DNA from: Streptomyces antibioticus
GTDB lineage: Bacteria; Actinomycetota; Actinomycetes; Streptomycetales; Streptomycetaceae
Assembly: GCF_001514065.1 (NCBI RefSeq)
Contig: NZ_KQ948422.1
Span: 434,001 to 498,000, forward strand
Direction of reading: 5' to 3'
Length of the DNA stretch: 64,000 nucleotides
The notes under the pieces were generated by a model, which was given only the letters and a program-made list of their open reading frames with translations, searched no databases and was not told the DNA's origin. The translations under genes and the position numbers were made by a program. Positions 29,141 to 64,000 of the stretch are shown here, in pieces (position 1 is the first letter of the stretch; each line of letters opens with the position of its first letter).

Positions 29141-30628
29141 GTGCACAGACTCAGAGCGCATGCCCTGGTTTCGGCCCTGTCGACGATCACCGTCGCGGCC
29201 CTACTGGCCACCGGCTGCTCCGCCCACTCCCCCGCCACCACCGGCGACGCAGCCGCCCCGACGGCCGAAGCCTCGAAGCCCGGCACCGACGACGAACGAC
29301 TCGCGGTCGTCTCCGCCCCGACCGGCGGCGTCGCCACCCCGACCGCCGTGGCCGCCGCGAACACGCCCGACCAGGCCCGGGCCAGGAAATCCGCGCTCAA
29401 GGTCGCGTCGTACGACAAGAAGAGCGGCCGGGCGGTCATAGCGGCACGGGCCTCCGGCTCGGGCACGGCACCGTCGGCAACCCCCTCGACAACGACCCCT
29501 TCCTCGCCCGCCGCCACCGGCACTGCCCAGGACCCGGGCTCGGACGGCGCGAATTCCAAGGCAGCCGTGGCTGTCGGCGACGTCATCGCCAGCGCCCCCG
29601 CCCCCGGCGCCCCCGACGGCGTACTGGCCAAGGTGACCGAGATCGTCGACACCGCGGCGGACGGCAGTGCGACCGTCCAGACGGAACCGGCCAAGCTCAA
29701 CTCCGTTCTGGGCAGGAGCAAGGCGGACGGTGCGGTCCCCGTCGACCCGTCCGCCCTGAAGGTCGAGCCGCTCGTCGAGGGCGTGAAGGTCTCCTGGGCG
29801 AAGACCGGTGACCTCACCTTCGGCCCCGAGGGTGCGAAGCTCCCGCTGGGCAGCCTGCGCATCGACGTCGGAACCGCTGTGCAGACCGCCGCAGGTGCCC
29901 CCGCCTCGGCCGCCGCCTCGCTCAAGGGCTTTGTCCAACTGGCCCCCGAGGTCGCCTTCTCGTACGACGGATCCCGCGCCGCCGCGAGCTCTTCACCCAG
30001 CGGCGCGTTCCTGGGGCTGACCGGCGAGTGGACCTCCCAGTGGCAGCTGAAGGGCCGCGCGGCCGGCACGACAAACGGCAAGCCGATCCGCATCCCCTTC
30101 GCCGAACTGCACGCCGACCCCGTGATCCAGGTCGGCCCCGTCCCGATCGTCGTCAATCTCGATCTCGTCTGCTACTTCCGGGTGGACGCCGACGGCCGCG
30201 TCACCGTCGACGCCGAACAGCACCTCAAGGGCGACTTCCGCGCAGGCGGCAACTTCACCTGGGCCAAGGGCTGGCGCGGCGTCAGCGAATCCCACATGAC
30301 CGGCGAGCCCCTCAAGACGACGGTCACCGCCGTCGGCAACGTCAAGGCCGCCATGGGCGCCGAAGCGACGGTGGGCCTCTACGGCACGGTGGGCGTCACC
30401 GCCGACCTCGCCCCCTATCTCCGCGCCGAATCCAACGCGGCAGCCGGCGGCTCGGCGAACGGCACCGGCTCCGCCTCCGGTTCCTGGGCTCTGTACGGCG
30501 GAGTCGACCTGAGCGGCACGCTGAATCTGCAGCTGTCCATCTTCGGCACCCCCGTCTTCCAGACGCGGATTCCTCTGGGCGCCGTGCACGAGGAGTGGCT
30601 GCTGACCAAGGGCGAAGTGAGGACGTAG
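29141..30628 (+). CDS. Putative surface lipoprotein of unknown function
   Basis: A 495-residue protein from GTG 29141 (GAGGA upstream). A hydrophobic signal (ALVSALSTITVAALLATGC) ends in a Cys fitting a lipobox (ATGC), so it is probably diacylated and anchored outside. A low-complexity Ser/Thr/Pro/Ala linker (about 25-165) follows, and then a beta-rich domain: KVTEIVDTAADGSATVQTEP, QVGPVPIVVNLDLVCYFRVD, ALYGGVDLSGTLNLQLSIFG. The repeating beta strands with few charged surfaces resemble a solenoid or barrel, but no family is recognised. It is divergent from the M1 peptidase. Function unknown. Confidence 0.75.
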   Translation: MHRLRAHALVSALSTITVAALLATGCSAHSPATTGDAAAPTAEASKPGTDDERLAVVSAPTGGVATPTAVAAANTPDQARARKSALKVASYDKKSGRAVIAARASGSGTAPSATPSTTTPSSPAATGTAQDPGSDGANSKAAVAVGDVIASAPAPGAPDGVLAKVTEIVDTAADGSATVQTEPAKLNSVLGRSKADGAVPVDPSALKVEPLVEGVKVSWAKTGDLTFGPEGAKLPLGSLRIDVGTAVQTAAGAPASAAASLKGFVQLAPEVAFSYDGSRAAASSSPSGAFLGLTGEWTSQWQLKGRAAGTTNGKPIRIPFAELHADPVIQVGPVPIVVNLDLVCYFRVDADGRVTVDAEQHLKGDFRAGGNFTWAKGWRGVSESHMTGEPLKTTVTAVGNVKAAMGAEATVGLYGTVGVTADLAPYLRAESNAAAGGSANGTGSASGSWALYGGVDLSGTLNLQLSIFGTPVFQTRIPLGAVHEEWLLTKGEVRT

Positions 30629-30718
30629 AAACGCTCGCGGCCAGGACGAGCCGGAGCGGGCCTGCTCTGTAGGCCGTGCAAAAGCGCCCTGATGGATGAC
30701 ATCACCGTCGAGGCAGAA

Positions 30719-30751
30719 GGCGCCCACAGGTTCGCCGGGCATGTGGGCGCC
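30719..30751. terminator. Inverted repeat downstream of the lipoprotein gene
   Basis: The arms GGCGCCCACA (30719-30728) and TGTGGGCGCC (30742-30751) are exact reverse complements around a 13-base loop. The repeat sits about 90 bp after the lipoprotein stop and before the convergent decayed phosphatase gene, a suitable place for a terminator serving both strands. There is no T-run, which is usual in Streptomyces. Confidence 0.45.
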
Positions 30752-30814
30752 GAACTCGACGGTGGGGCTGAGGCAGGGCCAGTCGGCGGGTTGGCTTGTG
30801 CTTTACGTCGTCGT

Positions 30815-32054
30815 TCACAGGATCAGCTGAGCCGTTACCGGGCGTGATGGTGCTGGCGGGCAGCAAGGATTGCGACGTCGTCCTCGTACGCGCCGTTTGG
30901 GTTCGTAGCCGCCCAGCCCGGTGCCGATGGGCGGGCCGGCCGGCAGCCACAGGATGTCGATGCTGCCGTCCGGGCGCAGCACGGCGGGCGGCGGGTGTCC
31001 TGCGCCGGCTGCGGTGCATGTGCCGTCCTGCGGGTCCACGACCGCGAGGAGGCAGGTGGCGAGGCGCTCGAGCCCGAGCTGTGCGACCTGGCGGTCGAAC
31101 TCTTCGAGGATCTCTTCGACGCCCGTGACGTTGGTGGCGATGGTGCGCAGCAGGGAGCGGTACTGGCTCATGGTGACGGCGGCCTGGAAGCCGTGACCCA
31201 TCACGTCACCCATGACCAGGAGAGTCCGCGCATCGGGCAGAGGCATCGAGTCGTACCAGTCTCCGCCGACCAGGAGTCTGCGGCCGGAGGGAAGATAGCG
31301 GGCGCTCACACTCGTCCGAGGCCAGGTTGCCCAGCCATGGCCGCCCGACGTCCATGCAATGGCGCGTGGCGATACCGCGAGGGATGTCGATGTAGGGGCC
31401 CGGTCCGCCCATCTGGTGCAGCAGCCACTCCATCCCCGCAGGCGCGGAGCCCCTCACCTTGCGCAGCCGCACGAAGCCGGGCCGAGGTGGGGGCGCACTG
31501 GTGAACTCCTCCTCCACGATGCCCACTGCGGCCATGTCCGCCTGCGAGGGGGCCAGGAGGTCGGACAGTTCCTGGCACGTGGTCTCGATGTCGAGGGTGG
31601 TGCCGACCCGCGTGGCCACAGCATCCAGCAGGGCGAGCCGTAGATGAGCGGTCTCCAGAGCGTCCAGGTAGCTGCGCAGACTGCTGATCTCCACGCCGAT
31701 CCAGCACAGGCCTGCATCCTGCCCGGGCAGTTCCACGCGGTGATAGACCGCCCGCCACAACCGTTGCCCGAGCGGAGAGGAGACACCGGTCGTTCCTGAG
31801 ACGGTCGTCTCGCGTGGCTGACCGTCCGCGAGGACCTCGGCCAGGACATCGTCCGGGCGTTGCAGGTCCGGCAGCACTTCCCCGAGCGTGCGCCCCAGGA
31901 ACGCGGACGCGGGCAGGCCGCTGATCTCGGCTCATGCCGGATTGACGTAGAGATGTCGCAACTGCGCATCGAGGACGACGATGGCGGCCAGGGTCCCCTC
32001 GACCAGCTGACGCCCGGGAAGGCCCTTGCCCTTGGGAAAGTGCCACTGCGGCAT
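30815..32054 (-). pseudogene. Decayed PAS-GAF-PP2C (SpoIIE) phosphatase gene
   Basis: Reading leftward from ATG 32052-32054, a PAS domain (QLVEGTLAAIVVLDAQLRHL, YVNPA) is interrupted by a TGA at 31932-31934 and resumes AEISGLPASAFLGRTLGEVL. A GAF domain follows (VATRVGTTLDIETTCQELSD, AAVGIVEEEF, WLGNLASDE). The frame then changes near 31310 and the linker to the phosphatase is missing. The PP2C part (LVGGDWYDSMPLPDARTLLV, GDVMGHGFQAAVTMSQYRSL, AGAGHPPPAVL) ends after GTGLGGYEPKR without its last metal-binding TDG motif. A stop, frameshift, internal loss and truncation together make it clearly non-functional. It is of the same kind as the intact phosphatase at 24266-25465, but not close in sequence. 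Confidence 0.75.
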
Positions 32055-32245
32055 GGCCCCGTCACCGTTCGCAGATGTGCCTCTCGCTGCCGTCAACGGA
32101 GCTCATCCATACCCGGTTCATCCGCTGATCTCTCGTCCGGGCGGAGCCGACCGCGGCCCGGTCGGTGGCTCCCTGACCTTCCTCAGCCGCAACTCAAAGC
32201 ACGCCGGTGCATCACTTTCGTGAAACATGGGGCTTCTACTGTGAA

Positions 32246-32261
32246 TGAACCGGTTGGTTCA
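32246..32261. promoter_or_regulatory. Inverted repeat, possible TetR-type operator before the TauD-like gene
   Basis: The arms TGAACC and GGTTCA mirror each other around GGTT. Sequences of this shape are typical of TetR-family operators. It covers the upstream in-frame ATG at 32245, which argues that translation starts further down at GTG 32296. The cognate regulator is not known; a truncated TetR gene lies at the other end of this cluster (40253-40729). Confidence 0.5.
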
Positions 32262-32295
32262 ATCGGGCTTCGCTCCGGGGACTTCAGGAGGCGCT

Positions 32296-33135
32296 GTGCC
32301 GGACGTCAGCTCCGCAAGTTTCATCCCGCGCAAGGTGACCGGCCCGCAGGAGGCGGCAGAGGTGCTCGCCGCCGAGGGTGCGGCCATCGTGACCGGGCTG
32401 GCGGACGAGGAGAGGGCGGTCGCGATGGGCCGCGCGATCATGGGGGACCGGGCGGTGCGGTGCGGCACTCAGTTCGAGGCGACGAAGGAGAGCGCCCGGG
32501 TCGAGGCGATGCAGATGAAGGCGCAGCCCGCCGACGGACGCGGCCGCAAACGCGACGCCGCCGGCCCGTCCGAGGAACGGATGGTCGCCCACAACGACGG
32601 CTTCGCTTTCGGTGACTACGCCCCCGACCATCTGTTCCTGTGGTGCGAGCGGCCCGCGGCCCGCGGCGGCGACTCCTTCCTGATCGACACGTCGCGGTTG
32701 CTGGACCTGCTGGCCGCAGATCCCGGCAGCGCCGCGCTCGCCGACTTCTGCCGCACGGTCGACATCGACCACTCCGAGCCCAACTACCCGCAGCGCGGCT
32801 TCTCACCGATCGTCCGGCGGACCCCGTCGGGCCGTTTCCAGGGCCGTCACCATCCCTATCTCGCGCCGGTCGAGGGCCCGTTGGAGCTGGAGCACTGGAC
32901 GTATGTGCGCGCCTGGCAGGCCGCGGTCGTCGCGGCCCGTGACAGCGGTCCGATGTTCCGGGTGGGCCCGGGCGAGATGATCTGCGTCGACAACTACCGG
33001 GTGTTGCACGGCAGGGACGGATACAGCGACCCGCGGCGCAGGGTGTGTTCGATCTGGGGCTGGAGCCAGGACGCGGTCGCGGTTCCGGACGGTCCGCTGG
33101 ACATTGTCGTCCCCCGGATCCCGATGGCGTCGTGA
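32296..33135 (+). CDS. TauD/TfdA-like Fe(II)/2-oxoglutarate-dependent dioxygenase
   Basis: A 279-residue oxygenase from GTG 32296, with AGGAGG four bases upstream. A jelly-roll core shows the metal triad: H-N-D in MVAHNDGFAFGDYAPDHLFL, and the distal His in NYRVLHGRDGYSDPRRRV, whose following Arg binds 2-oxoglutarate. It expects Fe(II), O2 and 2-oxoglutarate and hydroxylates or oxidatively demethylates a small molecule in the cytoplasm. It precedes the Rieske oxygenase by 580 bp, so it may be a separate transcript under the 32246-32261 site. Family firm; relation to the Rieske pathway is inferred from adjacency. Confidence 0.85.
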   Translation: MPDVSSASFIPRKVTGPQEAAEVLAAEGAAIVTGLADEERAVAMGRAIMGDRAVRCGTQFEATKESARVEAMQMKAQPADGRGRKRDAAGPSEERMVAHNDGFAFGDYAPDHLFLWCERPAARGGDSFLIDTSRLLDLLAADPGSAALADFCRTVDIDHSEPNYPQRGFSPIVRRTPSGRFQGRHHPYLAPVEGPLELEHWTYVRAWQAAVVAARDSGPMFRVGPGEMICVDNYRVLHGRDGYSDPRRRVCSIWGWSQDAVAVPDGPLDIVVPRIPMAS

Positions 33136-33714
33136 AATCTCCGCCGTTGCAGGTGTGAGCTCGCGCAGCGGGCGCAGCCGGCCGTCACGGACGTTTGAGG
33201 ACCCGCACCGCACTCCCCCACGTCACAGGCGTCACCACACCTGGCTGCGCGACCGGCCCCACCTTCCACGGTTACTCACTTCGCCCCCCACGCCGAAACC
33301 GGGCACGGAATCCGCAAGTAACAAACACGGAATGGCAGGGCAATCTACGTGCGTCAGTCTCGGCTTGGTCGTCCGGCGGCAGACAGTCGGCACTGAGCAC
33401 GGAGGGATGCGCGATGAGCTGTGTCAGCGCGTGCAGCACGGACCTCCGGTGCCGTGCCCACCAGTCGGCCTGGACCCGCGGACGCGTGGCGCACGGTTCA
33501 CATCCGGAGTCCGAGGGCTCTCACACCTGACCTCGTACCGATGACCGCGCCCGGCGCCCTGCCCGCTCAGCGGTTCCACGGTGCCTCCACCCCGGGATCG
33601 GCTCGTCACCGGCGCTCTCTCGCCTCACACGTGTTCACACCACCGTACCGGCGTGCGCGCATCACAGGTGTCTGTCCGGCCGTTCCCCGCCGCGCCACGC
33701 AGAAGGACCTCCGC
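33136..33714. other. Leader region of the Rieske oxygenase operon, no supported gene
   Basis: No domain-bearing frame is visible on either strand. The stretch should hold the promoter of the Rieske-reductase-transporter operon. Around 33290-33330 the sequence is AT-richer (for example CAAGTAACAAACACGG), a plausible promoter zone. No operator could be picked out. Confidence 0.3.
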
Positions 33715-34755
33715 ATGACCACTGCTCCACCCCGGCCGACTCTCCCCCGGGACTGCACGTTCGACGCCGACGACTGGGCGATCCTCGCCCAACACTGGTA
33801 CCCGGTCGCCCTGTCGAGAGAGATCGGCGACGCCCCGACCGCGGTGCGCCTGCTCGACGAGACGCTGGTGGCCTACCGGGCGGGCGGCAACGTGGTCGTG
33901 GCCCACGACATCTGCCCGCACCGCGGGGTGCCTCTGAGCCTGGGCGGCGGCGACGGGAACGGCATCACCTGCGCCTATCACGGGTTGCGCTTCGGCGAGG
34001 GCGGCCGGTGCGTGCAGGTACCGGCGCACCCGGAGTCGAAGATCCCGTCCCGGCTGAACCTGCGGACCTACCCCGTCGTCGAGCGGTACGGGCTGGTGTG
34101 GACGTGCCTGCGCCCCGAGCCCGACGCGGCCCCGGTGATCCCGGCGATGGCCCACTGGGACGAGGCGGGCTTCCAGCACATCAACTGTCCCTGGATCGAC
34201 ATCGCCGCCTTCGCCGGGCGCCAGGTCGAGGGCTTCCTCGACGTCGCCCACTTCGGCTTCGTCCACCTCGGCTCCTTCGGCGACCCCGACAACGTGGAGG
34301 TCCCCGACTACACCCCGGTCCGCCACCGCTACGGCCACTCCGTCGACTACTGGAGCACCGTCGGCAACTACCCGCACGGCACCAAGCAGGCCCCGCCCGG
34401 CTTCCGGTGGCTGCGCCGCTTCGACGTGCACCTGCCGTTCACGGCCACGCTCGTCGTGCACTTCCCCGACGGTGGGCTGCTCAACATCATGAACGCCGCC
34501 TCCCCCGTCTCCGCCCGCCAAACCCGCATGTTCGCGCCCATCGCCCGCAACTTCGACACCGACCAACCCGTCCAGGAGGTATACGACTTCAACCGCACAG
34601 TCTTCGAGGAGGACCGCGCCGTCGTCGAGGTCCAGAAACCCGAGAACCTCCCCCTCGACCCGAAACTCGAAGTGCACATCCCCGCCGACCGCAGTTCCAT
34701 CGCCTACCGCCGCGGCCTGCGCGACCTGGGCCTGAGCCACTTCTTCACCGCGTAG
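33715..34755 (+). CDS. Rieske non-haem iron oxygenase, VanA-like (aromatic/heterocycle O- or N-demethylase type)
   Basis: A 346-residue terminal oxygenase; ATG 33715 follows GAAGGA. Rieske ligands are Cys67 and His69 (ICPHRG) and Cys86 and His89 (CAYHGLRF). The mononuclear iron triad begins EGFLDVAHFGFVH with Asp176, His179 and His184. The single-component length and close similarity of layout to vanillate O-demethylase and caffeine N-demethylases point to oxidative demethylation or hydroxylation of a small ring compound. It is followed after 9 bp by its reductase, then by an importer and a deaminase. The substrate is inferred only from neighbours. Confidence 0.9.
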   Translation: MTTAPPRPTLPRDCTFDADDWAILAQHWYPVALSREIGDAPTAVRLLDETLVAYRAGGNVVVAHDICPHRGVPLSLGGGDGNGITCAYHGLRFGEGGRCVQVPAHPESKIPSRLNLRTYPVVERYGLVWTCLRPEPDAAPVIPAMAHWDEAGFQHINCPWIDIAAFAGRQVEGFLDVAHFGFVHLGSFGDPDNVEVPDYTPVRHRYGHSVDYWSTVGNYPHGTKQAPPGFRWLRRFDVHLPFTATLVVHFPDGGLLNIMNAASPVSARQTRMFAPIARNFDTDQPVQEVYDFNRTVFEEDRAVVEVQKPENLPLDPKLEVHIPADRSSIAYRRGLRDLGLSHFFTA

Positions 34756-34764
34756 GGGCCCGCC

Positions 34765-35739
34765 GTGCAGACACTCGACGTCATCGTCCACACGATCTCC
34801 CTCGCCTCCGCCACCAGCCGCACCTACGAACTCCGGGCGGCGGACGGCGGGCCGCTGCCGTCCTTCGAGGCCGGCGCCCACATCGACGTACATCTCGGGC
34901 CCTCCCTCGTCCGTCCGTACTCCCTGTGCAACTCACCCCGGGAAAAAGGCCGTTACCTGATCTGCGTACGGCGCGACGACACCGGGCGGGGCGGCTCCCG
35001 CACCCTGCACCGCGACCTCACCGTGGGCCGACGGCTCCGGATCTCGGCCCCGCGCAACCACTTCCCGCTCGTGGCGGCCGGGCATCACGTGCTCGTCGCG
35101 GGCGGTATCGGCATCACACCCCTGCTGTCGATGGCCGAAGCCCTGGCCGCGCGGGGAGCGTCGTTCGTCCTGCACCACTACACCTCCAGCGCCGCGGAGG
35201 CCCCCCTGCTGGAGCGGCTCCAGAACTCCGCTCCCGGCGAGCGGGCCGTGGTCCACCACAGCGACCAGGGGGACACCGTCCGCGCGGGGCTGCCCCCCGA
35301 ACTCCAGGTCCCCGAACCGGACACGGCCGTCTACGTCTGCGGGCCCGACGGCTTCATGACCCACGTCGTGGCCGAGGCGATGGCCGCGGGCTGGCACCCC
35401 GGGCAACTTCACACCGAACGCTTCGCTCCCGCAGCCCAGGCTGCTCCAGCGACTGCGGGCGACGAGATGGCCACCGCGTTCACCGTACGGATCGCGAGCA
35501 CCGGCACCGGCTACCGCGTCCCCGCCGACCGCACCATCGCCGAGGTCCTCACCGCCCACGGCGTCGACGTCGAGCTCTCCTGCGAGCAGGGCATCTGCGG
35601 CGCTTGCCTGACCCCCGTCCTGGCCGGCGAACCCGACCACCGCGACGAGGTGCAGACCCCGGACGAGCGAGCGGCGGGTGACCGGATCACCATCTGCTGC
35701 TCCCGCGCCCGCTCCCCCGAACTCCTCCTCGGCCTGTGA
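34765..35739 (+). CDS. Flavin and [2Fe-2S] reductase of the Rieske oxygenase (VanB-like)
   Basis: A 324-residue electron-transfer protein that passes electrons from NAD(P)H to the Rieske enzyme. An FMN-binding barrel is at about residues 1-100 (VRPYSLCNSP). The NAD domain shows GHHVLVAGGIGITPLLSMAE and VYVCGPDGFM. A C-terminal plant-type ferredoxin (about 230-324) carries C-x4-C-x2-C in ELSCEQGICGACL and a fourth Cys in ITICCSRA. GTG 34765 lies 9 bp after the oxygenase stop without a strong ribosome site, so translation is probably coupled. Same transcript as the oxygenase. Confidence 0.93.
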   Translation: MQTLDVIVHTISLASATSRTYELRAADGGPLPSFEAGAHIDVHLGPSLVRPYSLCNSPREKGRYLICVRRDDTGRGGSRTLHRDLTVGRRLRISAPRNHFPLVAAGHHVLVAGGIGITPLLSMAEALAARGASFVLHHYTSSAAEAPLLERLQNSAPGERAVVHHSDQGDTVRAGLPPELQVPEPDTAVYVCGPDGFMTHVVAEAMAAGWHPGQLHTERFAPAAQAAPATAGDEMATAFTVRIASTGTGYRVPADRTIAEVLTAHGVDVELSCEQGICGACLTPVLAGEPDHRDEVQTPDERAAGDRITICCSRARSPELLLGL

Positions 35740-35760
35740 CCCGGGATCCCTGATCCCGGG
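35740..35760. terminator. Perfect inverted repeat just after the reductase stop codon
   Basis: The arms CCCGGGATC and GATCCCGGG are exact reverse complements separated by CCT, directly after the TGA at 35737-35739. There is no T-run. Placed between an enzyme pair and the importer genes, it could attenuate read-through or protect the upstream mRNA 3' end, setting different expression levels within one operon. Confidence 0.55.
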
Positions 35761-35868
35761 CCGCCGCCCGACCGGAGACCGGCCCGGCACTGTCCGGGCC
35801 TTGCCCCACCCATGTTCCTCAGGTCCGTCAGGCCGGTGCCGACCCGGCCAGTGAAAGGAAAGCGCGCC

Positions 35869-36969
35869 ATGACCCGAAGCACGAACAGTGACAGAGCGTT
35901 CGCCGCCACCGACCGCCGTCTCTTCCTCAGGCGGGGACTCCAGTTGGGCGGTGCCGTGCTGCTCGGCGGCCCGCTGCTCGCCGCGTGCGGCGATTCCGAT
36001 TCGTCGTCCTCCACCTCTCCCACGTCCTCCGGTGACAAGAGTTTCGGTGAGCTCACGCTTCGGCTGTCCTGGATCAAGAACGTCGAGTTCGCGGGCAGCT
36101 ACATCGCGGACAGCAAGGGCTACTACACGGACGAGGGCTTCTCGAAGGTCACGCTGATAGGCGGCGGCCCGTCCGCGACCCCGATGGAGACGGACGTCGT
36201 CACCAAGAAGGCGCTCGTGGCGATCAGCGCCCCCGACATCACGGGCTCGGCCGTCGCCAAGGGCGCGCCCCTGAAGATCATCGGTGCGCAGTACCAGAAG
36301 AACCCGTTCTGCATCATGTCGATGGCCAAGGCCCCGATCACCAAGCCGGAGGACATGTACGGCAAGAAGATCGGAGTCCAGGCGGGCAACGAGTCCGTGT
36401 GGGCGGCCTACATCAAGGCGACCGGGCTCGACGAGTCCAAGATCACGAAGGTGCCGGTGCAGTTCGACCCGCTGCCCCTGACCCAGGGCACCGTGGACGG
36501 CTGGTTCTCCTTCGTGACGAACGAGCCGAACACCCTGCGTCTGAAGGGCTTCAAGGTCGCCACGATGCTGCTCGCCGACACCGGCTACCCGCTGGTCTCG
36601 GAGACGTACATCGTCCGCCAGGACACCATCGACAAGCAGCGCGAACTGCTCAAGGCGTTCCTGCGCGCGGAGATCAAGGGCTGGAAGGCGAACATCGCCG
36701 ACCCGGCGCTCGGCGCGAAGCTCGCGGCCGAGACGTACGGCAAGGGGCTCGGGCTGACGACCGAGGAGCAGACCCTCGAGGCCAAGGACGAGAACAAGCT
36801 CATCGTGAGCGCCGACACCAAGAAGAACGGTCTGTTCACGATCACGCCGGAGCTGGTCGAGGAGAACCTCAAGACGCTGAAGTACGGCGGCCTCGACCTC
36901 ACCGCCGACAAGCTCTTCGACCTCTCGATCATCGAAGAGGTCTACAAGGAGGACCCCAGCCTCATCTGA
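35869..36969 (+). CDS. NMT1/THI5-type ABC transporter substrate-binding lipoprotein
   Basis: A 366-residue secreted binding protein; ATG 35869 has GAAAGGA upstream. A twin-arginine-like start ([12 protein letters not shown]) leads to a lipobox LLAAC, so it is lipid-anchored outside. The NMT1 fold starts at about residue 55 ([78 protein letters not shown]). Relatives bind pyrimidine precursors, thiamine moieties, riboflavin or sulfonates. With a deaminase and Rieske enzyme next door, a nitrogen heterocycle is the best guess for the ligand. It is followed by an ATPase and two permeases. Confidence 0.9.
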
Positions 36970-36978
36970 GGCGCCGGC

Positions 36979-37013
36979 GGTACCGGTGCGGCCCCGATCG
37001 GCCCGCCGGTACC
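36979..37013. terminator. GC-rich hairpin after the binding-protein gene
   Basis: GGTACCGG at 36979-36986 pairs with CCGGTACC at 37006-37013, with further partial pairing between GCGGCC and GGCCCGC inside. It lies between the binding-protein stop and the ATPase start. Such hairpins often stabilise the upstream transcript so the binding protein is made in excess over the membrane components. Confidence 0.45.
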
Positions 37014-37051
37014 GGCTTCCCACTACCCGCACCGCACCCAGAGGTCAACTG

Positions 37052-37954
37052 ATGAGTACCGCAGCAGCTGTTCCCGACGCCTCCGACGACCCCGGACAAG
37101 AGGCCGGCTCCGGCACTGGGCTGTCCCTGCGCGGGCTGAGCAAGGAGTTCAAGCTCGGCCGACAGCGCGTCCCCGCACTGGCCGGCGTCGACCTGGACAC
37201 GGCCGAGGGCCAGTTCCTCACCCTGCTCGGGCCGTCGGGCTGCGGCAAGTCGACCGTGCTGCGGATCCTCGCCGGTCTCGACAGCCCGACCTCCGGTACG
37301 GCGCTCGTGCACGGCGAGGAGCCGGAAGCGGCCCGGAAACGGCACCACTTGGGCATAGCCTTCCAGGACGCCGCACTGCTGCCGTGGCGCTCGGTCGCCG
37401 CCAACATCCGGCTCCCGCTGGAGATCAGCGGCATCAAGACCGACCCGGCAGCCATCGCCGACCTCATCAAGCTGGTCGGCCTCGAAGGCTTCGAGAAGGC
37501 CCGCCCCGCCCAGCTCTCCGGCGGCATGCGGCAGCGCGTCGCGATCGCCCGCTCGCTGGTCGTCGACCCCAAGGTGTTGCTGCTGGACGAGCCGTTCGGC
37601 GCGCTGGACGACATGACCCGCCAGCGGCTCAACCTCGAACTCCAGCGCATCTGGCAGGCCCGCGCGGTGACCACCCTGCTGGTCACGCACTCCATCAACG
37701 AGGCCGTGCTGCTCAGCGACACCGTCGCGGTCATGTCGCCCCGTCCGGGCCGGATCGTGGAGAAGGTCACCATCGACCTGCCCCGGCCGCGCACACCCGA
37801 GATGATGCGCTCGCCCGAATTCCACGCGTACGCCGACCAGTTGTCGGAACTCCTCTTCGGCCGCGCGGAGGCTCCCGCCGAGGCCGCCGAGTCCGCCGAG
37901 GCCACCGCCGATGCCGCCGAGTCCGCCCCCGAGCCCGCCGCGGAGGCGTCATGA
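37052..37954 (+). CDS. ABC importer ATPase (SsuB/TauB-like)
   Basis: A 300-residue ATPase with Walker [11 protein letters not shown]-loop [11 protein letters not shown], signature [15 protein letters not shown], Walker [15 protein letters not shown] and the H-loop [11 protein letters not shown]-terminal Ala/Glu-rich tail (about 275-300) is an addition to the usual length. It powers import of the compound bound by the preceding lipoprotein. ATG 37052 follows GAGG. Its stop overlaps the next gene by the ATGA type, so the importer genes are translationally coupled. Confidence 0.95.
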
Positions 37955-38730
37955 GCGCGCACCGCTCCGCCTGGGCCGGAGGGGCCCTCGGCATCGCCGC
38001 CCTGGTCGGGGTGTGGTCGCTGCTGTCCACCACGGTCGTCGGCACCGGGGACGGCGTGCCCACCCCCTGGGCGGTCGTGGCGAGCGTGTTCGACGACGGC
38101 TGGACCTTCTACAGCCCGCACGTCACCCAGACCGTGGGCGAGGCCCTGACCGGCTATCTGCTCGGCAACGCGCTGGCGCTGGGCCTGGCCGTGCTGGTCC
38201 TCCTCGTGCCCGTGCTGGAGCGGGTGATCACGCAGATCGCGGTGGCCTCGTACTGTCTGCCGATCGTCGCGGTCGGCCCGATCCTGTCCCTCGTCCTGGA
38301 CGGCGACAAGCCGATGGCGGCGATGGCCGGGCTGTCGGTCTTCTTCACCACCCTCATCGGCACCCTGCTCGGACTGCGCTCGGCCGACCCGGCCTCGCTG
38401 GACCTGGTACGCGCCTACGGCGGCGGCCGTTGGCAGCAACTGCTCCGGGTCCGCCTGATCGCCGCGCTGCCCAGCACCCTGGCCGCGCTCCGGATCGCCG
38501 GTCCTGCGGCACTGCTCGGCGCGATCATCGGCGAGTACCTCGGCCGCGTCGACAGCGGCCTCGGCATCGCCATGACCATCGCCCAGCAGCAGCTCGACGT
38601 GCCCCGCACCTGGGGCATCGCCCTGGTCTCGGGCGCGGTGGCAGGTGTCGCGTACGGCGCGGTCGGGCTGGTCGCCCGCTACGCCCTGCCGTGGTCGCGC
38701 ACGACGACAGTGGAAGGCGGAGGCGCATGA
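37951..38730 (+). CDS. ABC importer permease 1
   Basis: A 259-residue membrane protein with about six TM helices and the binding-protein-dependent permease EAA-like loop at [20 protein letters not shown], which contacts the ATPase. Related to SsuC/TauC permeases. The start ATG overlaps the ATPase stop (ATGA) and its own stop overlaps permease 2 in the same way. Two distinct permease genes imply a heterodimeric channel. Confidence 0.93.
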
Positions 38731-39566
38731 GCACCGTGACGGGGACACAGACGGGGAGGGCCCCGGCGCTGCGGTTCGCGGCGGGCGTGCTGCGCCCGCT
38801 GCTGAACGTGATCGTGACGATGGCGGCCGTCATCGTCCTCTGGATCGTCTTCCTGCAGGTCTACGACCTGGACCCGCTGGTGGCCAAGTCACCGGTCGAC
38901 ATCTTCCACTACCTGTTCACGGGCACGGACGCGGACGCCCACCGCTCACTGGTCTCCTCGGGCCTCGGCCGCACGCTGCTCGACGCCGGGTTCGGCTTCG
39001 TGGCCGGGTTGGTGGCGGCGGTCACGGTGGCAGTCGTCTTCGTCCTGTCCCGGAGCATCGAGCAGGCGCTGCTGCCCGTGGCGGTCGTCCTGCGGTCGGT
39101 ACCCCTGGTGGCGATGACCCCGCTCATCACCCTCGTCTTCGGGCGCGGTCTGATGGCCACCACCGTCATCAGCGGCCTGATCGTCTTCTTCCCCGCCCTG
39201 GTCACCATGGCCTTCGGCCTGCGCTCCGCGTCCCGCCAGGCGGCCGACCTGTGCCGCGCCTACGGCGCCGGTGACTGGACGGTCGCCCGCAAGGTCATGC
39301 TGCCCAGCGCGGTCCCCGCGTTCTTCGCCAGCGCCCGCGTCGGCGTGCCGGGAGCCCTGATCGGCGCACTGCTCGCCGAATGGCTCTCCACCGGACAAGG
39401 TCTCGGCTACGCCATGCTCAAGGACTCCTCCACCTTCGACTACGACCACCTCTGGGCGTCGGTCGCGGTCCTCACCGCGGTGTCCGCACTGGCGTACAAC
39501 ATCATCGCGGCCGTCGAGACCGTCGCCCTGGCCCGCTTCGCGCCCAACATCCGTCCGGGCACCTGA
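38727..39566 (+). CDS. ABC importer permease 2
   Basis: A 279-residue second permease of the same family: about six TM helices and the ATPase-contact loop GLRSASRQAADLCRAYGAGD followed by VARKVMLPSAVPAFF. An outside loop after TM1 (about residues 45-75) is longer than in permease 1. It forms the heterodimeric translocation pore with permease 1. ATGA overlap with the previous gene. The deaminase gene follows after 32 bp. Confidence 0.93.
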   Translation: MSTVTGTQTGRAPALRFAAGVLRPLLNVIVTMAAVIVLWIVFLQVYDLDPLVAKSPVDIFHYLFTGTDADAHRSLVSSGLGRTLLDAGFGFVAGLVAAVTVAVVFVLSRSIEQALLPVAVVLRSVPLVAMTPLITLVFGRGLMATTVISGLIVFFPALVTMAFGLRSASRQAADLCRAYGAGDWTVARKVMLPSAVPAFFASARVGVPGALIGALLAEWLSTGQGLGYAMLKDSSTFDYDHLWASVAVLTAVSALAYNIIAAVETVALARFAPNIRPGT

Positions 39567-39598
39567 CCCCGTCCCGCCTGCACCTGGAGCCCTGAGCC

Positions 39599-40213
39599 AT
39601 GGATGCCTCCGCCTTCGCCACCACGTTCGGCGCCCAACTCCCCCCATGGGTGCTGACCGAACTGGCCGACGCGCCCGAGACCCTGCCCACCGACGAGGAC
39701 CGGATCCGTCTCACCAACCGCCTCGCGGACCGCAACCACCGCGAGGACACCGGCGGCCCGTTCGCCGCCCTCGTCGTGGAGACGGAGACCGGTCGCCTCG
39801 TCTCGGCGGGAGTCAACCTCGTCCTGTCCTCAGGGCTCTCCTCCACCCACGCCGAGGTCGTCGCCGTCTCCCTCGCGCAGACCCGGCTGGGCGCGTGGGA
39901 CCTCGGCGCACCGGGCGGCCCCGATCTCGAACTGGTCGTCAACTGGCGTCCCTGCGCGATGTGTTACGGCGCCGCGATGTGGTCCGGCATCCGCCGCCTG
40001 GTCATCCCCGGAGAAGGCCCCGAACTGGAACAGCTCACCGGCTTCGACGAGGGCCCCATGCGCGAGGACTGGGCCGAGCAGTTCGAGCAGCGTGGCATCC
40101 AGGTCACGTCCGGCGTACTGCGCGACGAGGCGATCGCGGTCTTCCGTGCCTACGGCGAACGCGAGGACGCCGTCGTCTACAACGCACGCGGCGCCGTGAC
40201 GGCCACCTCGTAG
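39599..40213 (+). CDS. Cytidine-deaminase-fold nucleobase deaminase
   Basis: A 204-residue zinc hydrolase. HAE (His84, Glu86) in SSTHAEVVAVSLAQTRLG and PCAMC (Cys119, Cys122) in VVNWRPCAMCYGAAMWSG provide zinc and the catalytic Glu. The layout is closer to guanine deaminase/TadA-like enzymes than to free cytidine deaminases, and the C-terminal part (GFDEGPMREDWAEQFEQRGI) is typical of a group sitting beside ABC importers. It probably removes an exocyclic amino group from the imported heterocycle. It ends the rightward operon. Ring substrate inferred, not shown. Confidence 0.88.
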   Translation: MDASAFATTFGAQLPPWVLTELADAPETLPTDEDRIRLTNRLADRNHREDTGGPFAALVVETETGRLVSAGVNLVLSSGLSSTHAEVVAVSLAQTRLGAWDLGAPGGPDLELVVNWRPCAMCYGAAMWSGIRRLVIPGEGPELEQLTGFDEGPMREDWAEQFEQRGIQVTSGVLRDEAIAVFRAYGEREDAVVYNARGAVTATS

Positions 40214-40252
40214 CGGGCCCGGGTCGCGCCAGGTCCCAGCCCTTCAGCTGCC

Positions 40253-40729
40253 TCAGGCCGGGTGGGCGGCGGTCTCCACGATGAGCCCCTGAAGGAACGT
40301 GGCGATCGCGGCCTCGAAAGCCTCGGTGAAGGCCGGGTGCATGAACGCCGGACTCGCGTCGGCCTGGAAGGCGGCGAGCAGTGAGGGGGCGGGACGGCTG
40401 CGGGTCCACAGGGCGCCGACGAGGATGATGACCATGTGCGCGGCGCGGAGCGCCTGTTCGTCGTCGAGTTCGGGAAGCAGACCGTGGAGCTGCTCCCCGA
40501 GCCAGCGGATGGCGTCACGCGAGGCCCTCTTGTACCTGGTCGCGACGTCGACCGAGATGTTGTGCTCCAGGATCGCGTGTTGCACGCTCAGCAGTTCGCA
40601 CAGCATCGGGTGGGCGGCGAACGTGGCGGCCAGCCGCGCCGCGACCTGGCGTGCCCGCACCGGAGCCGGTGCAGACAGGTCGGCACACTCGGCGAACGTC
40701 TCGGCGGTCTCGGGTGAGCCTCAACGAAC
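40253..40729 (-). pseudogene. TetR-family regulator lacking its DNA-binding domain
   Basis: Read leftward, the frame gives an all-helical TetR ligand domain (VAARLAATFAAHPMLCELLS, VVIILVGALWTRSRPAPSLL-like stretch, AIATFLQGLIVETAAHPA). A stop codon precedes it near 40730, and only about ten recognisable TetR residues (ETAETFAECADL) stand before the first possible start GTG 40660. The N-terminal HTH of about 50 residues is absent. Either it is a truncation scar, or the short protein (135 residues) survives as a non-binding partner. It faces the deaminase gene convergently and could once have regulated the catabolic cluster. Confidence 0.6.
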
Positions 40730-40932
40730 TCAGTCGGCGCAACGGATCGGGGTCCCCCGCGTGGAATCACCCCTGCTCACAGTGCCGACCCTCTTCTGGA
40801 GGGACCTCGCAGGGGCGTGCGCACCCCGTATCCGGCTCCTCGGCGGACGACGCCGCGCGGTCATGCTTCCGCCACCACCGGCGTCGACACCGCCGCGCCG
40901 ACGCCCCTTAGCGGCAGACTGGCCAAGTGCTT

Positions 40933-40966
40933 ATCGAAAACGTACTGTCGAAAACACGTTTTCGAT
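40933..40966. promoter_or_regulatory. Overlapping inverted repeats, probable TetR operator
   Basis: The arms ATCGAAAACGT (40933-40943) and ACGTTTTCGAT (40956-40966) are exact complements around a 12-base spacer. A nested palindrome uses TCGAAAAC and GTTTTCGA around AC (40948-40965). The T/A content stands out from the GC-rich surroundings. It lies 57-90 bp upstream of the TetR start, so the regulator should bind here and control itself and the downstream reductases. Confidence 0.7.
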
Positions 40967-41022
40967 CCCTGCTGTCCAGACGGACGGTCATGGACCGGCG
41001 ACTGGGACGACGGGAAGCACTG

Positions 41023-41613
41023 ATGAGCAAGCAGGCACCGGCATCCAACCGGCGCAAGCGACTGACTGCGGAACGCGAGCGCGAGATCCTCGACGTCACC
41101 TTCGAGCTGGTCGCCGAGGTCGGCTACGAGCAGGCGACCGTGGACGAGGTAGCCAGACGGACCAAAGCGAGCACGGCCACGCTGTACCGGCAGTGGGAGA
41201 ACAAGCCCAAGCTCGTGATCACGGCGATGATGGCGCGCAAGTATCCGCCCCTGCCACACATCGACGCCGGAAGCCTTCGCGACGACCTGGTGGCGCTGGC
41301 CCGTCTGATGCCGGCGCCACACCCGAAGGGCGCCCCGACGCTGGGAATCTGGCAGGCGGTTGTGTCCGACCCCGCCCTCGCCCAGGCCCTGAAGGATGTC
41401 CTGTTCGCGCCCTACCTCGACGCGCTGCGGGCGATCCTGGCCCGGCACGTCGAGCGCGGAACGATCCGTCCCGACAATCCGGCCCTGGCGCACGCCGAGA
41501 TGTTCCTGATGGGCAGCGTCTTCGTGAAGAAGCTCTTCACCGGCACCGAGGCGGACGCCGACCAGCTCATCGCGGTGATGGACGCCCTGCTGCTGCCCGC
41601 GCTGACCAGCTAG
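41023..41613 (+). CDS. TetR-family repressor
   Basis: A 196-residue regulator. The HTH is at about residues 12-60 (EREREILDVTFELVAEVGYE, DEVARRTKASTATLYRQWEN), with a helical ligand domain after it (HIDAGSLRDDLVALARLMPA, FLMGSVFVKKLFTGTEAD). I chose ATG 41023 because the HTH begins at its usual position; upstream in-frame starts would add a basic stretch that overlaps the operator. It probably binds the inverted repeat at 40933-40966 and, with the SDR and MDR genes downstream, forms a regulator-plus-reductase unit. Inducer unknown. Confidence 0.88.
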   Translation: MSKQAPASNRRKRLTAEREREILDVTFELVAEVGYEQATVDEVARRTKASTATLYRQWENKPKLVITAMMARKYPPLPHIDAGSLRDDLVALARLMPAPHPKGAPTLGIWQAVVSDPALAQALKDVLFAPYLDALRAILARHVERGTIRPDNPALAHAEMFLMGSVFVKKLFTGTEADADQLIAVMDALLLPALTS

Positions 41614-41693
41614 CCGCAGATGACCCCTTCCTCATCCGGGCGGCATCCCCTTGGCCAGTCGGTACGAGGACGAGAAGACAAAGGAACTTGGCC

Positions 41694-42746
41694 ATGAGCA
41701 GCACTTCGACCGACACCGTCCTGGTCACTGGAGGCTCCGGATTCCTGGGCGGCCGTGTGATCGCCCAGGCGCTCGGGGAGGGCTACAAGGTCCGCACCAC
41801 GGTGCGAAACCTCAGCCGCGAGGCGCAGGTTCGCAGGGACTTGGAGGCCATGGGCGCGCACGCGGGTGACCGGCTCACTTTCGTGGAGGCGGACCTCACC
41901 GCGGACGGAGGGTGGGCCCAGGCGGTGGCGGACTGCCGCTACGTCCTGCACATCGCCTCCCCCTTCCCAGGCGGCGAGCCCGACCACGAGGACGACCTGA
42001 TCGTCCCGGCCCGAGAAGGCACGCTGCGCGTGCTGCGCGCCGCCCGCGACGCAGGCGTGGAACGCGTGGTGGCCACCTCCTCGTTCGCCGCCGTCGGCTA
42101 CGGAAGGCCCGCCACCGAACGGCCTTTCACCGAGAACGACTGGACCGACCCGGACAGCGACCTCCCCGCCTACATCAGGTCCAAGGCGCTGGCCGAACGA
42201 GCCGCCTGGGACTTCGTCGAGCGCGAGGGCAACGGCCTCCAGCTCGCCACCGTCGCCCCGGTCGGCATCTTCGGCCCCGTCGTCGGCAGCGACCACTCCT
42301 CCTCGATCGACATGATCATCGGCCTGTTCAGCGGCGCCATGCCGGGCACGCCCCGCCTGTACTTCGCGGTCGTCGATGTCCGGGACGCCGCCGACCTGCA
42401 CCTCGAGGCCATGACCGACCCCAGGGCAGCCGGCGAACGCTTCATCGCCGCCGCCGGCGACGCCGTCTCCCTGCACCGGATCGCACTCGCCATCCGCGAC
42501 CGCCTCGGCGACGCGGCCAGTGCCGTCCCGACCACCGAGCTTCCGGACGAGACGGTGCGCAAGGCCGCAGAGGCCAACCCGGCACTGCGGGGTGTGCTGT
42601 CCAACCTCGGCAAGGTCCGCCACGTCAGCAACGACAAGGCCCGTACCGTCCTCGACTGGAACCCCCGCAGCAGCGACGAAGCCGTCGTGGCCACCGCCGA
42701 AAGCCTCTTGGAGCTCGGCCTTCTGCCCACCGCGCAGCCCGCATAG
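41694..42746 (+). CDS. Extended SDR reductase, dihydroflavonol-4-reductase-like
   Basis: A 350-residue NAD(P)-dependent oxidoreductase: nucleotide-binding VLVTGGSGFLGGRVIAQALG, then VATSSFAAVGYG and the active-site Y-x3-K in AYIRSKALAERAAW. The layout matches the DFR/cinnamoyl-CoA reductase group that reduces aldehydes or ketones. ATG 41694 has AAGGA upstream. It follows the TetR gene by 80 bp and is probably derepressed by its ligand. The MDR enzyme comes 116 bp later, so carbonyl detoxification is a likely joint role. Confidence 0.9.
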   Translation: MSSTSTDTVLVTGGSGFLGGRVIAQALGEGYKVRTTVRNLSREAQVRRDLEAMGAHAGDRLTFVEADLTADGGWAQAVADCRYVLHIASPFPGGEPDHEDDLIVPAREGTLRVLRAARDAGVERVVATSSFAAVGYGRPATERPFTENDWTDPDSDLPAYIRSKALAERAAWDFVEREGNGLQLATVAPVGIFGPVVGSDHSSSIDMIIGLFSGAMPGTPRLYFAVVDVRDAADLHLEAMTDPRAAGERFIAAAGDAVSLHRIALAIRDRLGDAASAVPTTELPDETVRKAAEANPALRGVLSNLGKVRHVSNDKARTVLDWNPRSSDEAVVATAESLLELGLLPTAQPA

Positions 42747-42862
42747 ATGCAGGCGCGCATCCGGGCTCTTGCCTGCTCGACGGAGTCCCCGGCAGCCGAC
42801 GTGACGCCCCACCAGCTTTCAACGGCCTTACAGAGAACCGTGGACTTCCCGACGGAGGAAAC

Positions 42863-43765
42863 ATGCCCAAAGCGATCACGCTGACCGACTTCGGCGGTCC
42901 TGACGTGCTGCGATGGACTGAGGTCCCGCTTCCCCAGCCGAGCGAGGGGCAGATCAGGGTGAAGGTGAAAGCCGCGGGCGTCGGCCCGACCGACCTCGCC
43001 CTGCGCTCGGGCCGCCTCAAGGCCTTTTCGCTACGGCGGAACGCCGTACTCGGCTTCGAGGTGGCAGGCACTGTCGACGCAGTCGGGCCCGGAGTGAACG
43101 GAACGCAGATCGGCGAAGAAGTATCGGCACTGCTTTTCGACCTTGGTGGATACGCCGAATACGCGGTTGCCTCAATGTGGGTCACAAAGCCACCGTCCGT
43201 CCCGTGGGCGGCCGCAGCCTCTCTGCCCGCCTCGGCGGAGGCGGCAGCGGGGGTTCTGCGACAGCTGGCGGTGAAGACGGGCGACACACTGCTGGTGCTC
43301 GGTGGGGGCGGGGCTGTCGGCTTGATCGCAACCCAGCTGGCGGTCGCTCAGGGCATCAAAGTGGTGAGTGCCGTAGGCGAGCGGGACGACGCACTGGTCA
43401 CGTCCCTGGGTGCCACGCCCGTACGCTACGGCGCGAAGCTGGTGGACGCGGTCAGGCGTGTCGGAGCTGTCGGCTTCGCGTTCGACGCCGCTGGCAAGGG
43501 AATGCTGGCGGACGCGATCGCGTTGACCGGAGCCGCCGACCGGGTGATCACCTTGTCCGACCCCGCTGCGGCGGACTTCGGTGTCGCACTGTCACATCCC
43601 AGTCCTCAGCGGGCTCCTCACGCATTGAAGGACACCATGTCCATGTTGGCTCAGGGGCGGCTCAGGCTGCGGGAGTACAGAACCATGCACATGCAAGACG
43701 CCAACGAGGCGCACCGTCTGCTCGAAGGCGGTCAGGTGCACGAGCGGATCGTACTGACCCTCTGA
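42863..43765 (+). CDS. MDR-family NADPH:quinone/enal oxidoreductase
   Basis: A 300-residue zinc-independent reductase; ATG 42863 follows GGAGGAAAC. N-terminal GroES fold (KAITLTDFGGPDVLRWTEVP, KVKAAGVGPTDLALRSGRL) and Rossmann domain with LLVLGGGGAVGLIATQLAVA. No zinc-binding cysteines. It probably reduces alpha,beta-unsaturated carbonyls or quinones. It shares family and topology, but not close sequence, with the reductase at 9066-9995. Possible co-transcription with the TetR and SDR genes. Confidence 0.9.
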   Translation: MPKAITLTDFGGPDVLRWTEVPLPQPSEGQIRVKVKAAGVGPTDLALRSGRLKAFSLRRNAVLGFEVAGTVDAVGPGVNGTQIGEEVSALLFDLGGYAEYAVASMWVTKPPSVPWAAAASLPASAEAAAGVLRQLAVKTGDTLLVLGGGGAVGLIATQLAVAQGIKVVSAVGERDDALVTSLGATPVRYGAKLVDAVRRVGAVGFAFDAAGKGMLADAIALTGAADRVITLSDPAAADFGVALSHPSPQRAPHALKDTMSMLAQGRLRLREYRTMHMQDANEAHRLLEGGQVHERIVLTL

Positions 43766-63686: not shown

Positions 63687-63692
63687 TACGAT
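63687..63692 (+). promoter_or_regulatory. Probable -10 box (TACGAT) of the leaderless LysR gene
   Basis: TACGAT matches the actinobacterial -10 form and ends seven bases before ATG 63700. No Shine-Dalgarno sequence precedes that ATG, so the transcript is probably leaderless. The 200 bp upstream (63485-63686) show nothing else. Confidence 0.4.
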
Positions 63693-63699
63693 GACCCCC

Positions 63700-64000
63700 A
63701 TGGACCTCGATATGCGGCGGGTGCGCTACTTCGTGGCCGTGGCCGAGGAGTGCAGCTTCGTGCGCGCGGCGAGCCGTCTCTACATGACCCAGCCGGCGCT
63801 CAGCCGTCAGATCCGGGCGTTGGAGGAGGATCTGGGCGTGGTCCTCTTCCTGCGGGACCGGCAGGGCACTGTACTGACGCGGGCGGGACACCAGTTACTG
63901 GAGGACGCCCGACCGATGCTGGCGATGTCGCAGGCGGTGCAGCAGCGGGTGCGCATGGCGGACCGGGAGGTGAACCACTTCGCCATCGGATTCATGCCGG
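63700..64000 (+). CDS. LysR-family transcriptional regulator, 3' end outside window
   Basis: About 100 codons are visible. The N-terminal winged HTH has [40 protein letters not shown] and [15 protein letters not shown], the classic LTTR pattern. Starts at ATG 63700 (leaderless, see the -10 box) or ATG 63691. The effector domain lies outside the window. It is downstream of, and in the same direction as, the catalase-like gene, but has its own promoter. Confidence 0.88.

Follow-up and report, generated by a model that had tools for sequence, protein, structure and literature searches.

In Klebsiella, hpxDE has a role in oxidising hypoxanthine and xanthine, and in Proteobacteria xanthine riboswitches precede genes for NMT1-type proteins, tauA-type transporters, Rieske and 2-oxoglutarate (2OG) oxygenases and deaminases (both according to PMC7373994). 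The xanthine/2OG dioxygenase XanA is fungal, and a 2014 review (PMC5611559) describes a search that reports no bacterial homologue. Guanine deaminase NE0047 is the name given to the protein of structure 7C3S in PMC9739398. The stretch of DNA considered here (the window) comprises 64,000 nucleotides from the 10.1 Mb genome of a Streptomyces (S. antibioticus, contig NZ_KQ948422.1) and contains, at 32245-40213, eight co-directional genes on the forward strand, of which those at 33715-40213 quite likely form an operon for the uptake and molybdenum-free oxidation of purine bases. The key enzyme is of a known type and the predicted pathway is largely identifiable.

An initial annotation, made from the DNA letters and their open reading frames, had placed these eight genes, and both their positions (with gene starts picked by eye inside the listed frames) and the intactness of the enzyme motifs held up. 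Each of the eight proteins gave at least one Pfam match above cut-off, and no NCBIfam match above cut-off was found among the matches listed for them (for the ATPase, the best 25 of 186 families).

32245-33135, + strand: TauD-family Fe(II)/2OG oxygenase, an accessory unit and candidate second purine hydroxylase (PF02668, 66 bits; H116/D118/H255; NMT1 importer close by in 5/5 genomes)
33715-34755, + strand: HpxD-type Rieske oxygenase, of the molybdenum-independent xanthine hydroxylase type (61% to Klebsiella HpxD; 42-row clade, 100/100; Rieske and VanA_C domains)
34765-35739, + strand: HpxE-type reductase (flavin adenine dinucleotide, nicotinamide adenine dinucleotide, 2Fe-2S; Fer2, NAD_binding_1 and FAD_binding_6 domains; 42-51% to hpxD neighbours in L033, L035, L038, L039 and L040)
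35869-36969, + strand: NMT1-type substrate-binding lipoprotein of a probable purine importer (PF09084, 143.6 bits; purine genes next to five relatives of 42-46% identity)
37052-37954, + strand: importer ATPase (PF00005, ABC_tran; Walker A/B, LSGG)
37951-38730, + strand: importer permease A (PF00528, BPD_transp_1)
38727-39566, + strand: importer permease B (PF00528, BPD_transp_1)
39599-40213, + strand: predicted NE0047-like guanine deaminase of the cytidine-deaminase fold (best PDB match 2g84, E 3.4e-42, then 7c3s; HAE/PCAMC; dCMP_cyt_deam_1)

The Rieske oxygenase and its reductase

The motifs of the Rieske protein are all intact (C67-x-H69 and C86-x2-H89, with D176/H179/H184 for the mononuclear iron). 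In a plasmid collection it matched 111 records at 1e-30, the best 30 of which showed 60-69% identity at 424-474 bits (tblastn), and 13 of those 30 are annotated as hpxD, molybdenum cofactor-independent xanthine hydroxylase. The 61% identical HpxD of Klebsiella (L039) is encoded near hpxR, hpxO, uraD and uraH, and in a Pseudomonas locus (L036) hpxO adjoins hpxD. In a tree of 72 rows (NdmA not being one of them, and L095 having been dropped because its segment was too short) the Rieske protein falls inside the 42-row clade, together with the named HpxD of L036, L038 and L039; the program warned of long branches, that of L014 among them, outside the HpxD clade. The HpxE-type reductase gene lies directly beside hpxD. 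On sequence grounds, the pair is assigned to HpxDE, i.e. to the molybdenum-independent xanthine hydroxylase type.

The deaminase and the importer

In the deaminase, HAE (residues 84-86) and PCAMC (residues 118-122) are intact, the match to 2g84 extends over residues 14-200, and the zinc motifs as well as a GFDEG stretch are shared with NE0047. By sequence it is a member of the NE0047 family, with guanine as its probable substrate. Matches to it occur in 17/199 Streptomyces genomes at 1e-25. The host itself encodes a second NE0047-like deaminase (contig C1 near 1014626; L131, 9602-10210), which is 68-69% identical and lies beside an oxidoreductase gene, away from the hpx genes; the neighbours in another locus, L133, are similar to those of this second copy.

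The importer has the parts of an ATP-binding cassette (ABC) system: a binding protein with LAAC at residues 37-40, an ATPase with Walker A, LSGG and LLLDEP, and two permeases. The nearest solved binding proteins are 4nmy and then the formylaminopyrimidine binder 3ix1 and THI5; sequence comparison puts the protein nearer to pyrimidine binders of solved structure than to those that bind sulfonates or taurine. It is present at 1e-60 in 2/199 Streptomyces genomes, each of which also carries hpxD, and among 396 Actinomycetota genomes seven besides the host have a relative at 1e-40.

The company kept by such relatives points to purines. Five of them, at 42-46% identity (L153-L157), all have purine genes alongside: a molybdenum hydroxylase of the xanthine-dehydrogenase type is encoded near the importer in L153 (above the pucD cut-off) and in L154, L156 and L157 (below curated cut-offs), a gene of the 8-oxoguanine deaminase type in L153 and L157 (the latter 57% identical to the host copy), a cytidine-deaminase-fold gene in L154 and L156, and a Xan_ur_permease gene in L155. 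A uricase match and a 2OG oxygenase were seen in L154 as well, and in L153 the ATPase gene is separate from those of the permeases. A Nonomuraea relative (L054; 53-56%) has genes for an adenosine deaminase, a PucR-type regulator and an amidohydrolase among its neighbours. The imported substrate is thus probably a purine base.

Further arrangements were recorded among these loci. Genes for a nucleoside deaminase and for a thioinosine phosphorylase occur a few kb from a more distant relative (L061; 31%). At 5180-6229 of L154, a 2OG-Fe(II) oxygenase of a Pfam family different from that of TauD lies close to the purine cluster with its molybdenum hydroxylase gene. In Alloyangia (L056, 1-3521 and 8899-12320), about 5 kb separate xdhAB from an importer with a binding protein of about 40% identity, and the genes nearer to that importer look lipid-related.

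Operon layout and proposed pathway

From the Rieske gene through the deaminase gene the intergenic gaps are 9, 129, 82, -4, -4 and 32 bases, as opposed to 579 bases between the TauD and Rieske genes, which makes 33715-40213, without TauD, the likely extent of an operon read as one transcript.

In the proposed pathway, the NMT1-type ABC importer would bring in a purine base, the NE0047-like deaminase would convert guanine to xanthine, and HpxD (with O2 and with electrons delivered via HpxE) would oxidise xanthine, and perhaps hypoxanthine, to urate, which would then enter the uricase/UraH/UraD route, the genes for which lie in another part of the host genome. The TauD enzyme encoded upstream, as an accessory unit, may add a second iron-dependent purine hydroxylation. 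The initial annotation had likewise proposed that a heterocycle is taken up, oxidised and deaminated, for which HpxD, the NE0047-like deaminase and the context of the importer relatives now argue, the heterocycle probably being a purine. The order of steps that it gave (oxidation, then deamination) should probably be reversed, as it is more likely that the amine is removed before the ring is oxidised.

The later steps can be traced in the host. On contig C7, models for a xanthine permease, an 8-oxoguanine deaminase, urate oxidase and UraD occur together above cut-off, along with a UraH match, and a uricase match was found in 16/16 genomes (in one of them split in two). HpxDE would accordingly be a molybdenum-free bypass into the common urate pathway, presumably serving molybdenum-poor conditions.

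Conservation

Thirteen Streptomyces hpxD loci were compared, namely that of the window and 12 others, with flanks of about 10 kb (shorter in L071 and L072); G125 and G292, whose contigs are identical to those of L065 (S. griseoruber) and L068, were counted once. The importer is present in 10/13, an HpxE match in 13/13 and TauD in 4/13, while an NE0047-like deaminase is encoded in 7/13, its place being taken by an adenosine-deaminase family gene in three others (L063, L067 and L069). The initial annotation had made a conserved neighbourhood the test of its proposal, and such a neighbourhood is what was found: besides the frequency of the importer, the gene order is seen again in other Streptomyces and is therefore not due to chance.

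Orthologues of hpxD are rare, occurring at an identity of at least 89% in 3/295 Streptomyces genomes (host included). Among the 396 Actinomycetota genomes the next best hpxD reaches 43% (G388) and lies beside an 8-oxoguanine-deaminase-like gene (L050, 31%). In a Nocardia hpxD locus, a deaminase match adjoins hpxD.

The TauD gene

The iron triad of 2OG oxygenases (H116/D118 and H255) is intact in the TauD protein, as would be expected of XanA. Its nearest matches of solved structure, TmpA and gamma-butyrobetaine dioxygenase, are weak, and no match to it was found in the plasmid collection at 1e-20. Structure models were left unused both for this protein (alignment of 4 close rows, mean predicted local distance difference test score, pLDDT, 32.1) and for the binding protein (10 close rows, mean pLDDT 31.6).

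TauD occurs in 5/199 Streptomyces genomes at 1e-40, in all five near an NMT1 importer. Two of the five carry the hpxDE operon and the other three (L128-L130) gave no hpxD match; there, the neighbours of TauD are another NMT1 importer (33% identity in the binding protein and 55% in the ATPase), a TetR gene and, after the importer, a gene of the adenosine-deaminase family, which is intact in two loci, with only a fragment match in L129. Importer and deaminase genes lie beside TauD with or without HpxDE, so TauD travels with them. The TetR gene adjoins TauD in L062, L064 and L065 as well; no match to it was found in the window, where the gap in question is 33135-33715, and control of the operon may therefore differ in this strain. 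With 4/13 loci carrying it, TauD is not supported as the core member of the set that the initial annotation had made of it.

Judging by the company of its gene, the TauD enzyme may resemble XanA and hydroxylate purines as a second iron enzyme. It is conceivable, though on balance rather unlikely, that iron enzymes have more than once taken the place of the molybdenum xanthine dehydrogenase behind one actinobacterial purine importer: HpxDE, a TauD-family oxygenase (with a related importer) and, in the window, both, with TauD doing the job of XanA.

Evidence against and alternative explanations

A number of observations weigh against a purine operon of this kind. The host encodes a pucD-like molybdenum enzyme, just under its cut-off and about 45 kb from the purine genes of C7, and all 13 hpxD genomes searched (the 12 other Streptomyces included) have a pucD-type match at 1e-100, that of Nocardia being weak and one being above cut-off; given the molybdenum enzyme of the host, HpxDE is redundant on paper. 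Regarding the importer, its Rhodobacterales relatives (L055-L059; 40-42%) lie among lipid and glycosyltransferase genes, none of the purine queries found a match in L158 (37%) or L159 (32%), and L060 (32%) adjoins a cytochrome P450. Binding-protein identity is a weak guide here, since by the program that gives 40-42% for the Rhodobacterales relatives L153-L157 score 41-45%; the identity of the ATPase does separate the groups (67-73% in L153-L157 and L054 versus 51-55% in L055-L059). Within the flanks of about 10 kb, both deaminase types went unmatched in 3/13 Streptomyces hpxD loci (L064, L070 and L072), as did the binding protein in 3/13, and the latter had no match in 22 hpxD loci outside Streptomyces (of which L075, L083, L085 and L090 are shorter). 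In L064, L069 and L093 an intact HpxD is accompanied by an HpxE match that is cut short or broken; HpxD may draw on a different reductase there, or these copies may be decaying or misassembled. Finally, no xanthine riboswitch (RF03054) was found at 30000-43000 of the window up to an E-value of 1.

Of the other readings of the operon, catabolism of a methylated purine (methylxanthine or methylguanine), in which the Rieske enzyme would remove an N-methyl group as NdmA does and the deaminase would act next, is improbable. For the Rieske protein, NdmA does rank among the best matches of solved structure, at 148 bits, but none of these exceeds 150 bits (phmmer) compared to the 424-474 bits (tblastn) of the HpxD-type records, so that the protein is not nearer to NdmA than to HpxD, even if two programs make this a rough comparison. 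Together with its place in the HpxD clade (in a tree without NdmA) and the lack of a second demethylase in the operon, this speaks against the demethylation that the initial annotation had put forward. Salvage of the thiamin pyrimidine precursor, or of another aminopyrimidine, seems very unlikely: it could explain why, after 4nmy, 3ix1 and THI5 are the nearest solved binding proteins, but the closest importer relatives sit in purine clusters, the families of HpxD and of the NE0047-like deaminase are purine families, and no thiamin gene was recognised in the region read (frame list and Pfam scan). NE0047 is active on ammeline too, a double activity that would fit the breakdown of an s-triazine or another purine-like xenobiotic; as no triazine hydrolase set was recognised in the operon and an adenosine-deaminase family gene takes the place of the deaminase in three relatives, the chance of this is slighter still.

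A separate matter is whether TauD belongs to purine oxidation at all, or is a bystander with an unrelated substrate, e.g. a trimethylammonium compound, the probability of which falls somewhat short of even. Its presence in only 4/13 hpxD loci, its distance from the Rieske gene and the nature of its (weak) nearest solved matches all fit a bystander. On the other hand, all five TauD genomes among the 199 have it near an NMT1 importer, with an adenosine-deaminase family gene in the three that lack an hpxD match, and 2OG oxygenases of another Pfam family are encoded in one of the riboswitch loci and close to one purine cluster of the Actinomycetota.

Neighbouring genes

Just after the operon, a frame at 40253-40660 (- strand) encodes a TetR_C_34 C-terminal domain and gave no helix-turn-helix match; it looks like the remnant of a regulator gene. 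Upstream, two overlapping frames (30815-31309 and 31206-31877, - strand) look, by eye, like parts of one apparently frameshifted gene for a GAF/SpoIIE-type phosphatase. An UvrA-like ABC ATPase of 822 residues, again judged by eye, is encoded at 43887-46355 (- strand).

Comparison with known systems

If the proposed function is true, some members of an importer family that commonly goes by the label nitrate/sulfonate/thiamin would have a purine substrate, and a route to purine nitrogen under molybdenum scarcity would be suggested. The gene set also shows HpxDE in an importer-linked operon in Streptomyces and opens the way to a direct test for a TauD-type purine hydroxylase in bacteria. None of the open-access titles and abstract openings searched concerned hpxDE in Streptomyces or this gene set there (subscription papers being outside the scope).

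The deaminase resembles NE0047 (2g84, 7c3s) in the features discussed above, i.e. the extent of the match, the zinc motifs and GFDEG, and differs in sitting in an hpx operon. The likeness of TauD to XanA is one of proposed role, namely molybdenum-free purine hydroxylation, which is what TauD may contribute. The actinobacterial purine clusters L153, L154, L156 and L157 have in common with the window a binding protein at 42-46%, an ATPase at 67-70% and a deaminase-family gene, whereas a molybdenum hydroxylase stands in place of HpxDE.

A xanthine-riboswitch aptamer was found in 4/23 records or genomes searched; as 150 candidates were scored per larger genome, its absence from the other 19 records is not firm. 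It was likewise not found in L153-L157, L054 and L062 (the last at the gathering score). In all four riboswitch loci, genes for an NMT1 importer and an amidohydrolase lie side by side or no more than a few kb apart; three have a Rieske gene, and in the fourth a 2OG oxygenase follows right after the aptamer. In contrast to this shared outline, their binding proteins are 21-22% identical over the alignment and their Rieske proteins 27-29%, outside the HpxD clade, and they combine the riboswitch with an amidohydrolase-type deaminase where the window has a deaminase of another fold. The window and these loci can thus be read as following a common recipe with parts that are not close.

Another close likeness is to the Klebsiella hpx system (hpxDE, hpxO, hpxR), with which the window shares an HpxD of the same clade, an adjacent HpxE-type reductase and, as predicted here and described in PMC7373994, purine oxidation toward urate without molybdenum. 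Counterparts of the other Klebsiella genes are missing: no HpxO match was found in the window and HpxR gave only a 72-residue LysR match at 63691-63906, 29 kb off, while the 12 other Streptomyces hpxD loci gave no HpxR or HpxO match. The window differs further in its NMT1 ABC importer and deaminase, and in the TauD unit that lies upstream in some species. The initial annotation had regarded the gene set as one of no known kind, which is not supported, as HpxDE is a named system and an NMT1 importer with an oxygenase and a deaminase is the recipe of the xanthine-riboswitch loci (PMC7373994). What does look new is the pairing of HpxDE with a dedicated importer, plus a possible second iron enzyme.

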